Shown: positions 23,105-35,707 of the stretch, in pieces | Numbering within the stretch: the stretch's first letter is position 1 | Layout: the number at the start of each line of letters is the position of its first letter | Origin: an uncultured Sphingomonas sp. | GTDB lineage: Bacteria > Pseudomonadota > Alphaproteobacteria > Sphingomonadales > Sphingomonadaceae | Direction of reading: 5' to 3' | Assembly: GCA_913777325.1 (NCBI GenBank) | Contig: CAJYSA010000082.1 | Location: 1-44,787, forward strand | Length of the DNA stretch: 44,787 nt | The notes under the pieces: generated by a model | Seen by the model: the letters and a program-made list of their open reading frames with translations, nothing else | What the model was told of the DNA's origin: nothing | Database searches by the model: none | Program-made: the position numbers and the translations under genes

Positions 23105-23848
23105 ATGGCAGGCCATTCCAAGTTCAAGAACATCATGCACCGCAAGGGCGCGCAGGATAAGAAGCGCTCCGGCATGTTCTCCAAGCTCAGCCGCGAAATC
23201 ACCGTGGCGGCCAAGATGGGGATGCCCGATCCCGACATGAACCCGCGCCTGCGCGCCGCGGTGAACGCCGCCAAGGCGCAGTCGATGCCCAAGGACAATA
23301 TCCAGCGCGCGATCGACAAGGCGTCGAAGGGCGATACCGAGAATTACGAGGAGATCCGCTACGAGGGCTTCGGCCCGGGCGGGGTCAGCCTGATCATCGA
23401 GGCGCTGTCCGACAACCGCAACCGCACCGCGACCAACGTGCGCACCGCGGTGTCCAAGAACGGCGGCAACCTGGGCGCGAGCGGATCGGTCAGCCACGGC
23501 TTCGACCGGATGGGCCTCATCAACTATCCCGCGAGCGCCGGCGACGCCGAAAAGGTGTTCGAGGCAGCGCTGGAGGCCGGTGCCGAGGACGTGACGTCGA
23601 GCGAGGATGGCCACGAAATCTGGACCGAACAGGCGTCGCTCCACGAAGTCGCCAAGGCGCTGGAGCCGGTGCTGGGCGAGGCCGAGGGCGCGAAGCTGGC
23701 GTGGCGCCCGCAGACGATGGTCGAGGTGACCGAGGCGGATGCGGCGACGCTGTTCAAGCTGATCGACGCGCTGGACGACGACGACGACGTGCAGACGGTG
23801 TGGGGCAATTACGAAGTGTCCGACGAGGTGATGGCGAAGCTGGGGTGA
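23105..23848 (+). CDS. yebC: YebC/PmpR family regulator (TACO1-like)
   Basis: A 247-residue protein of the YebC family, described in different bacteria as a DNA-binding regulator or as a factor that helps ribosomes through proline stretches. The family start [18 protein letters not shown] is present, as are [34 protein letters not shown] and the [14 protein letters not shown] loop. It commonly lies upstream of ruvC; here a nuclease cassette with inverted repeats separates the two. Confidence 0.96.
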
Positions 23849-23874
23849 TGCAGGGGCGGGGGTGGCGATTTAAA

Positions 23875-23909
23875 AGCCCCTCCCCTTGAGGGGAGGGGTT
23901 GGGGTGGGG
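23875..23909 (+). repeat. Inverted repeat C, left copy
   Basis: A 35-bp G/C-homopolymer-rich element beginning AGCCCCTCCCCTTGAGGGGA and ending GGGTTGGGGTGGGG. It contains its own hairpin (CCCCTCCCC/GGGGAGGGG). The right copy at 24269-24303 is its reverse complement with 33 of 35 matches. It sits 26 bp after yebC and directly before the ATG of the DUF559 gene, where it supplies the purine-rich ribosome binding stretch. Confidence 0.9.
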
Positions 23910-23911
23910 GA

Positions 23912-24313
23912 ATGACGAGCGAGACTGAATTGCTGGCGCGCGCCGCGGAAATGCGCCGCAATCCTACAGAGTGGGAGAAGCGGCTCTGGCGCGAACTCTC
24001 CGGCACGAAGCTCGGCCATAAATTCCGACGCCAGCACGTTATCGCCCCTTACATCGCCGACTTCTTCTGCCCGGCGAAAGGAGTGATCGTGGAGGTCGAT
24101 GGCGACACGCACGATCCGGTGGCGGACATGATGCGCGACCGCTTCACTGCCAAAAAAGGCTTCCGCACCCTGCGCTTCTCGAACTTGGACATTCGCGAGA
24201 ACATGGAAGGCGTCCTGCTCACGATCGTCCACACGCTCCAAGCCACGCCCGATCGCTGGTCCGGCCTGCCCCACCCCAACCCCTCCCCTGAAAGGGAGGG
24301 GCTTGCGCGATGA
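23912..24313 (+). CDS. DUF559 endonuclease-like protein in an inverted-repeat cassette
   Basis: A 133-residue protein of the DUF559 family, related to Vsr/PD-(D/E)xK nucleases. Visible marks: [31 protein letters not shown] with Asp50, [11 protein letters not shown] with Glu61, Asp63 and His67, and [17 protein letters not shown]. It should be a cytoplasmic DNA endonuclease-fold protein; no activity is established for the family. The last 15 residues ([15 protein letters not shown]) are encoded by the right inverted repeat and are not part of the fold. The stop overlaps the ruvC start by 4 bp (ATGA). G+C of one 60-bp line is 62%, below the neighbours. Confidence 0.88.
24269..24303 (-). repeat. 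Inverted repeat C, right copy
   Basis: Reverse complement of the left copy with two substitutions. It codes for the C-terminus of the DUF559 protein and contains GGGAGGGG (24294-24301), which lies 8 nt before the ruvC ATG and is the only visible ribosome binding site for ruvC. Confidence 0.9.
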
Positions 24314-24816
24314 TCATTCTCGGCCTCGATCCCGGCCTCGGCACGACCGGCTGGGGCGTCATCCGCGCCGAGGGCAACCGCCTCAGCCACGTCGGCAACG
24401 GCCAGATCCGCACCGACCCGTCGATGCAGCTGCCGCGACGGCTCGCGAACCTCTACTCGGCGTTGATCGACGTCATCCGCGCCGAGCGCCCCGACGAGGC
24501 GGCGGTCGAGGAAGTGCTGGGCAACACCAACGCGCAATCGACGCTGAAGCTGGGGCAGGCGCGCGGCGTCGTGCTGCTGGCGGCGAGCGGCGCGGGGCTG
24601 ACGATCGGGGAGTACCACCCCTCGACCGTCAAGAAGGCGGTCGTCGGCACTGGCGGCGCGGAGAAGCGGCAGATTCAGGCGATGATGGCGGTGCTGCTGC
24701 CCGGCGCGAAGCTGGCCGGGCCGGATGCGGCGGACGCGCTGGCGGTCGCGATCTGCCACGCGCACCATGTCGCGAGCGCGCAGGGGATGATGCGCCGCGC
24801 GCGGGCGGGGGCGTAG
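24310..24816 (+). CDS. ruvC: Crossover junction endodeoxyribonuclease RuvC
   Basis: RuvC resolves Holliday junctions with RuvAB during recombination repair. At 168 residues it has the usual size. The catalytic acids are Asp7 ([12 protein letters not shown]), Glu67 ([13 protein letters not shown]), Asp139 and Asp142 ([16 protein letters not shown]). [17 protein letters not shown] is the conserved DNA-contact region. The ribosome binding site comes from the right inverted repeat of the DUF559 cassette. ruvA and ruvB do not follow; a palindromic repeat and a convergent gene lie downstream. Confidence 0.97.
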
Positions 24817-24865: not shown

Positions 24866-24959
24866 CGTCATCCCGGCGTAGGCCGGGATCCACGCCACCG
24901 CAGGAACCGACGCCGGCAATATTGCGGATAGGTGGACCCCGTTTGCGCCGGAGATGACG
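24866..24959. repeat. Palindromic repeat pair, family B, copy 2
   Basis: The left arm (24866-24892) starts CGTCATCCCGGCGTAGG and ends CGGGATCCA. The right arm (24933-24959) is TGGACCCCG...CCGGAGATGACG, its approximate reverse complement. The centre is 40 bp. Each arm has an inner hairpin (CCCGG/CCGGG). It is placed between the convergent ruvC and the secreted hypothetical gene. Confidence 0.8.
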
Positions 24960-35288: not shown

Positions 35289-35383
35289 CGTCACCCCGGA
35301 CTTGTTCCGGGGTCCACGGTGCCGCAGGATCACAGGACGCGGGGGCGCGGAGCGGTGGATGCCGGGACCAGCCCGGCATGACG
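35289..35383. repeat. Palindromic repeat pair, family B, copy 3
   Basis: The left arm (35289-35316) starts CGTCACCCCGGACTTG and ends CGGGGTCCA. The right arm (35356-35383) is TGGATGCCGGG...CCGGCATGACG, its approximate reverse complement. Each arm has an inner hairpin; the centre is 39 bp. The right arm carries the first ATG of the GIY-YIG gene (35378-35380). Confidence 0.85.
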
Positions 35384-35707
35384 GTGGAGAGGGGTTTGAG
35401 GGAACGGCAACCCTGCGTCTACATCATGGCAAGCGCCGTGAACGGGACGCTATATGTCGGCCTCACCTCCAACCTGATCCATCGTGTGCAACAGCATCGC
35501 GACGGCATCTTCGGCGGCTTTACCGAGCGCTACGGGGTGAAGCGTCTCGTCTGGTACGAAATGGCCGACACGATGGACGCGGCCATCGGCGCGGAGAAGC
35601 GCATCAAAAGGTGGCCGCGCGAATGGAAACTCAATCTGATCGAGCGTGACAACCCGCACTGGGACGATCTTGCGGTCTCGCTCGGATTCACGACCATGCG
35701 CGGTTGA
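35378..35707 (+). CDS. GIY-YIG nuclease domain protein
   Basis: A 109-residue single-domain GIY-YIG protein of the UPF0213/YhbQ type. Motif 1 is VYIMASAVNGTLYVG (VYI and YVG in place of GIY and YIG). The catalytic Arg lies in LIHRVQQHR and the metal-binding Glu in IGAEKRIKRW. Family proteins are presumed DNA endonucleases; biological role unsettled. The first ATG (35378) is inside the right arm of a palindromic repeat; internal starts GTG 35384 or TTG 35396 are also possible, and the domain begins only at about residue 12. G+C of one 60-bp line is 60%, below that of glnD. Confidence 0.85.
   Translation: MTVERGLRERQPCVYIMASAVNGTLYVGLTSNLIHRVQQHRDGIFGGFTERYGVKRLVWYEMADTMDAAIGAEKRIKRWPREWKLNLIERDNPHWDDLAVSLGFTTMRG

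Follow-up and report, generated by a model that had tools for sequence, protein, structure and literature searches.

DUF559 nuclease genes and their cognate triplex-forming inverted repeats in Sphingomonas and other bacteria

The DUF559 unit between yebC and ruvC

A contig of an uncultured Sphingomonas sp. (CAJYSA010000082.1, assembly GCA_913777325.1; 44,787 nucleotides, hereafter the window) carries a small DUF559 nuclease gene that is enclosed by two inverted repeat arms and, together with them, sits between yebC and ruvC (Table 1). An earlier note had described this unit and read it as a cassette that moves or is copied with its own nuclease. The position of the unit and the family of the gene are as described there: the product matches Pfam DUF559 (PF04480) with 94.2 bits, against a curated cut-off of 20.6. 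The repeats had been given as 35 bp with 33 matching positions; the pair is confirmed, while its arms measure 36 nucleotides each, are 94% complementary and lie 359 nucleotides apart. A chance origin of this pairing was rejected: the arms score 30 in local alignment, against at most 15 when 707 other placements with the same spacing are tried in the window, and control segments of other loci (below) give the same answer.

Table 1 Features of the DUF559 unit and other genes of the window.
Feature	Position	Strand	Remarks
Left repeat arm	23874–23909	+	36 nucleotides; repeat search, pattern search, mirror test
Right repeat arm, inverted	24269–24304	−	36 nucleotides; repeat search, pattern search
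DUF559 (PF04480) nuclease open reading frame	23912–24313	+	133 amino acids, ATG start; PF04480 match 23933–24238; predicted Vsr/EDxHD endonuclease fold
yebC	23105–23848	+	Left neighbour, context outside the unit
ruvC	24310–24816	+	Right neighbour, context outside the unit; ATG overlaps the DUF559 stop
GIY-YIG gene	35411–35635	+	

The gene fits closely between its arms. Its ATG at 23912 follows 2 nucleotides after the left arm, as had been noted, and its reading frame runs into the right arm; this overlap stands, with 14 codons from the start of the arm, 12 of them inside it, in place of the 15 claimed. The stop codon overlaps the ruvC ATG at 24310. The lower G+C content previously remarked on was also found, at 61.8% between the arms compared with 68.4% in the window, 66.0% in yebC and 72.6% in ruvC; because 4.1% of the 359-nucleotide stretches of the window are as low, the drop is real but mild.

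An alignment of 36 DUF559 rows that includes the window protein has 16 invariant columns, and the roles of the EDxHD residues are judged from the sequence. The structure model of the window protein (predicted local distance difference test, 88.9) indicates a Vsr/EDxHD endonuclease fold, which is the catalytic fold of EDxHD homing endonucleases, and the second-best fold match of the model is the homing endonuclease I-Bth0305I. The window protein differs from that enzyme in that its 133 residues are too few to accommodate the extended DNA-binding region that PMC3943268 reports for I-Bth0305I, and its gene lies between repeats and not in an intron. Its only NCBIfam family match is the YcjD model NF007294, at 64.6 bits, far under the cut-off of 218.

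In each arm a hairpin with palindromic stem (CCCCTCCCC-loop-GGGGAGGGG) is extended towards the gene by TT and the G-rich tail GGGGTGGGG; in the left arm the hairpin CCCCTCCCC-TTGA-GGGGAGGGG occupies 23877–23898. This is the layout of the BoxC/PIT/TM repeats, in which a pyrimidine–purine hairpin precedes a third strand made of purines, a mirror image of the purine half. The exact published TMECO pattern is found at 9 other sites of the source genome. The window arms deviate from it (GGGGAGGGG-TT-GGGGTGGGG versus GGGNGAGGG-N3-GGGNGAGGG), and the window repeat is therefore a sister variant and not TMECO itself.

The tails are more than chance runs of G: their sequence is predicted by the purine stem half read backwards, with A or T opposite A. 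Among 139 arms of DUF559 loci, picked solely by the G content of their tails (94 of the 233 unique arms fall outside this test), 112 fit the mirror rule perfectly, and none of 1000 exchanges of stems among arms of equal length reached the observed sum. When all 233 unique arms are compared with swapped stems, which takes in two-hairpin types that the mirror test does not model, the arm's own stem wins 1946 of the 3124 comparisons and loses 401, with 777 ties. At one locus with the same repeat type as the window (L206), both stem halves are altered and the tail is altered to match.

Pairing of DUF559 genes with their own repeats

The source genome contains five DUF559 matches. Four are standalone genes (that of the window and those on contigs C47, C123 and C10, the last of them broken), and all four lie between inverted hairpin repeats, the variant differing from gene to gene. 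The remaining match is part of a 1520-residue open reading frame, and none of these repeats was found in the stretch inspected around it.

The earlier note asked whether DUF559 genes elsewhere are flanked in the same way; most are, at two scales. We counted an inverted pair where it scored at least 14 within 250 bp of the DUF559 domain. Across the order (61 genomes), such a pair is present at 118 of 130 usable loci, compared with 2 of 256 control segments from the same loci. These loci derive from 132 of 150 DUF559 places among the matches listed, 18 having been left out as fragments or as contig-edge or long-reading-frame domain matches and two more at contig edges; by eye, each of the 12 remaining loci has at least one such hairpin, one-sided, interrupted or decayed. 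In a database-wide scan, 59 of 77 usable loci pass versus 3 of 453 controls. This sample is the best 80 of at least 562 confirmed matches, less two edge loci and an artefact caused by a run of N (L250). Judged from their titles, the 80 are mostly from Pseudomonadota, with Chloroflexi, Desulfobacterales, Rokubacteria and Gastranaerophilales also represented; loci that do not pass include those of Dadabacteria (L267) and Nitrospinota (L272). Eight plasmid loci were inspected singly: pairs are clear in Deinococcus (L138, L141), Sinorhizobium (L142) and Pseudanabaena (L143) and weak in L140, and in L136, L137 and L139 no clear pair was found, with hairpins on one side. Among the GIY-YIG genes of the same genomes, no usable locus has a triplex-type repeat (0 of 26; 26 of 30 loci among the matches listed, L367–L396, with 350-bp flanks and without control segments).

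The repeat variant follows the protein subfamily. Arms were sorted by sequence into seven types with regular expressions; seven labels were set by hand (L205, L208, L209 and L213 to type F, L072 to type D, L176 and L178 to type A), and five unlabelled loci were kept out of the tree. On a tree of 125 rows, built from the DUF559 domain alone, short of columns and with 59 of its 121 inner branches open, the repeat types need 13 changes where 6 is the minimum possible; shuffled labels need 81.8 on average, and none of 200 shuffles came as low. A starred branch separates type D, to which the window repeat belongs (15 rows), from the rest of the tree, and another does so for type E (13 rows). By neighbourhood, the 130 loci group into 45 clusters; when each cluster is represented by a single row (43 rows, 20 draws), the types still need 7 to 10 changes, versus 26.7 on average, and never fewer than 22, for shuffled labels. 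The genome label requires 112 changes on the tree, and one genome can house several DUF559 subfamilies. All 13 type-B genes share one neighbourhood; the 13 type-E genes lie in 13 different ones. On the present data, it is close to certain that DUF559 genes and triplex repeats are cognate units.

Two further features of the arms were seen. By eye, the linker between stem and third strand in types F, G and H (e.g. L085, L091, L181) is itself a small hairpin, variable in sequence with its pairing kept. At L108, L130, L131 and L176 the right hairpin is interrupted by other palindromes (AGTTGCAGG...CCTGCAACT, AGTTTGGG...CCCAAACT and one in L176), as if these targeted the hairpin.

Repeat copies, gene-less pairs and insertion sites

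Repeat counts rest on pattern searches. The source genome has 7 copies of the window repeat with up to 3 mismatches, and the reversed pattern has none: two copies surround the window gene, two the DUF559 gene on C47, two form a gene-less inverted pair on C48 and one stands alone on C49. With a stricter pattern, the 61 genomes of the order have 0 to 125 copies each, the reversed control being 0 in every genome. In two of these genomes most copies are paired with the tails inside and the hairpins outside (30 of 47 copies in 15 inverted pairs in G016, 32 of 44 in 16 pairs in G031), and in a third, G009, just 6 of 24 copies are (all hand tallies). Gene-less inverted pairs are commonly about 97 bp: of 40 from six genomes, ranging from 95 to 147 bp, 30 measure 95–105 bp. 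Read in the same orientation, 34 of the 40 have AG directly before them and 24 have CT directly after.

Copy number depends on the presence of the gene. In the genus (37 genomes), the type-D repeat has a median of 26 copies (2–125) in the 15 with a type-D gene versus 1 (0–19) in the 22 without (p = 2e-6). With six incomplete genomes dropped and the gene's two arms subtracted, the medians are 24 and 0 (p = 3e-5); the type-D label derives from the arms, yet matches one clade of the protein tree. At the scale of the phylum, 43 of 199 genomes contain the TMECO pattern as published, and a strong DUF559 match is present in 33 of these 43 versus 29 of the other 156 (Fisher 2e-12; 'strong' means E below 1e-10, a limit chosen after viewing the list, and the 33/10/29/127 table was tallied by hand). 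At default limits the figures are 35 of 43 and 45 of 156 (Fisher 8e-10).

Empty sites, by which the earlier note would have its cassette judged, do occur. We compared 30 yebC loci among the matches listed, of 60 genomes with a yebC match. The gap between yebC and ruvC holds a DUF559 gene with type-D arms in six, the source genome included; it is without insert in four, measuring 2–29 nucleotides, and contains a gene-less inverted pair of another variant in four more (L119, L125, L131, L134). Each of the other 16 gaps has a solo hairpin or single arm, a different repeat or gene, or content of unclear nature. The coupling to ruvC in the earlier note is incidental, with four insert-free relatives and 130 loci spread over 45 neighbourhoods. 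In other species (L107, L113, L122, L128) the same gap is occupied by a further repeat family of the CGCAGAGGCGCAGAG type, so the site gathers several repeat classes.

One gene-less pair is polymorphic as well. The type-D pair on C48 (about 56158–56257; L010, L336) lies in frame inside a protein gene, to which it adds about 35 residues; we take the host, judging by its sequence, to be a biotin-dependent carboxylase alpha-subunit gene. The insert is also present in G084 and is missing from G083, G035 and G079, and G016 carries a different one. At another site, G032 has one hairpin, built from the two outer stem halves, left and right, where G029 has a 417-bp DUF559 unit. This solo hairpin could be what a deletion between the two hairpins (also direct repeats with respect to one another) left behind, or else the target of insertion.

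Proposed mobilisation of the repeats, its rivals and related families

The best explanation for the pairing and its breadth, the co-variation of subfamily and repeat, the gene-dependent copy number, the insertion polymorphism of a gene-less pair and the mirror rule is, we think with fair though far from full confidence, that the DUF559 nuclease mobilises its cognate triplex-forming repeats. The window unit would be the gene-bearing form of a two-part system composed of a DUF559 nuclease and cognate triplex-forming hairpin repeats. A single-stranded repeat could fold into a hairpin whose G-rich tail turns back and joins the stem as third strand. In each subfamily, the nuclease would most likely recognise its own repeat type in folded form and cut at or beside it. 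The break or freed strand would then let host repair or replication copy or move the inverted pair elsewhere, with the gene or, more often, gene-less. We infer the recognition, cutting and copying by the nuclease as well as its action on single strands. Since the gene often keeps one site, as in type B, the repeats may spread more than the gene; the moving cassette of the earlier note is supported as a reading, with the amendment that the gene often stays put.

The system is best read as REPtron-like, with a nuclease of predicted Vsr/EDxHD fold replacing the tyrosine transposase. REPtrons, according to PMC3116915 and PMC8266576, consist of a REP-associated tyrosine transposase (RAYT) gene flanked by repetitive extragenic palindromes (REPs), together with non-autonomous REPIN doublets; enzyme and repeat co-evolve, and the enzyme is single-copy. 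The DUF559 units resemble REP/REPIN and RAYT (TnpA-REP) systems in being small and single-gene within inverted hairpin repeats, which recur as gene-less inverted doublets of about 100 bp, in having one repeat type per enzyme subfamily, and in an enzyme gene that is low in copy number and frequently at a fixed site. The analogy to REP/RAYT elements drawn in the earlier note thus holds in several points: the bracketed gene, the gene-less inverted pairs, the repeat type per subfamily and the copy number that tracks the gene. The differences are that the window gene encodes a DUF559 protein and not an HUH tyrosine transposase, and that the repeat is a hairpin with a third-strand tail and no GTAG.

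The repeats themselves belong with the BoxC/PIT/TM 'intrastrand triplex' repeats, with which they share a C-rich stem half, a purine stem half, a linker of 2–3 nucleotides, a G-rich third strand, inverted pairs of arms and variability from strain to strain. In E. coli, BoxC has been on record since the 1990s with neither its role nor its spread explained, and a 2015 survey counted 3610 copies of one triplex pattern in 262 genomes; no mobilising gene was reported, the motif was not associated with high-mobility elements, and its function and mechanism were left open (PMC4666352). These repeats were known as sequence motifs, whereas here they are tied to the DUF559 family, and a wider set of sequence variants is seen than the published pattern covers. 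Because gene brackets recur in many bacterial groups, each subfamily with its own repeat, DUF559 may be the missing partner of these widespread scattered repeats. We found no link between DUF559 genes and these repeats in the open-access literature; one may be in print elsewhere.

The main rival is a repair role, in which a Vsr-like DUF559 protein handles lesions, breaks or stalled forks at unstable repeats and is kept close and matched to them without spreading them. PMC12907096 proposes that Caulobacter VsrA, a DUF559 protein, is a mismatch-repair enzyme. We consider the repair reading of the units unlikely, as genomes with the gene have more repeat copies and not fewer, the type-E genes occupy a different neighbourhood in each of 13 cases, and a general repair enzyme is hard to square with a subfamily matched to one repeat variant. 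Somewhat less likely still is homing, in which the nuclease cuts a unit-free allele, into which the unit is then copied during repair; the repeats would be no more than borders or target. The fold match to I-Bth0305I, the DUF559 units found at the same site in several species and the solo hairpin where G029 has a unit fit this model, but one cognate site leaves unexplained the dozens of copies elsewhere, many of them gene-less and matched to the subfamily. It is improbable that the DUF559 genes are passengers, carried by happenstance between copies of a repeat that another agent, slippage or recombination spreads. Recombination can remove or shift the DNA between the left and right hairpins, because these double as direct repeats, and some genomes with the TM pattern have no strong DUF559 match (below); against this, the repeat type brackets 118 of 130 DUF559 loci and none of the 26 GIY-YIG loci in the same genomes, and passengers would not follow repeat type and copy number. 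That the repeats are REPs served by a RAYT can be set aside almost entirely: layout and size do resemble REPINs as portrayed in PMC3116915, but the window arms have no GTAG beside the hairpin, and because a Y1_Tnp search of the source genome gave 0 matches and G033 alone among the 15 type-D genomes has any, the DUF559 unit is not of the RAYT family and a RAYT origin was rejected for the genus.

Several observations weigh against mobilisation by DUF559, as does the VsrA proposal. Ten of the 43 TM-pattern genomes have no strong DUF559 match, among them genomes with 36, 21, 12 and 8 copies; these exceptions could be relics or be served by another helper, and they speak against a strict dependence of the repeats on DUF559. 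The p-values given above carry no correction for kinship. By eye, neither a target-site duplication nor a clean junction could be read in the 40 gene-less pairs, at the carboxylase locus, where the linker varies and a duplication is for that reason unreadable, or in the G029/G032 comparison; the insert-free sites have variable linkers at the carboxylase locus and a solo hairpin in G032. Many DUF559 genes are syntenic, with 45 neighbourhoods for 130 loci, which suits vertical inheritance equally with moving. Lastly, ycjD of E. coli K-12 has one clear repeat and one imperfect hairpin, both 3′ of the gene, and none 5′.

A broader proposal, which we advance tentatively and hold to be slightly less probable than its negation, is that DUF559 proteins are dedicated mobilisers of the BoxC/PIT/TM superfamily across Bacteria: replicators independent of tyrosine transposases, whose Vsr-fold nuclease would recognise a folded, three-stranded DNA end, with a parallel GIY-YIG class that serves other repeats, CGTC REPs included. 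If true, DUF559 would gain a function, and REP-like replicators would have arisen more than once with unrelated enzymes. The family also offers a candidate that can be tested in an organism of the laboratory, namely E. coli K-12 YcjD, a DUF559 protein whose gene is adjoined by a TM repeat, though with the one-sided arrangement given above; ycjD is absent from the text of PMC4666352. The stretch fabI-ycjD-sapF is present over at least 80% of its length in 3333 of 5426 E. coli genomes, and two of the others that we inspected have regulator and efflux genes in place of ycjD, in agreement with PMC12817139, where the ycjD locus alternates between strains with the eef operon.

The GIY-YIG genes have repeats of their own. 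Within 350 bp, 17 of the 26 usable loci lie between inverted repeats of other families (e.g. CCGTTCGCCCTGAGCTTGTCGAAGGGC; GTCATTCCCGCGAAAGCGGGAATCC), some of which resemble CGTC REPs, stated in PMC3733652 to be without a dedicated transposase. In the window, an inverted pair CGTCACCCCGG..CCGGGGTCCA / GGATGCCGGG..CCCGGCATGACG lies at 35289–35383, just upstream of the GIY-YIG gene, and a CGTC-type inverted pair (CGTCATCCCGGCGTAGGCCGGGATCCACGCC ... GTGGACCCCGTTTGCGCCGGAGATGACG) is found at 24866–24959, shortly past ruvC.
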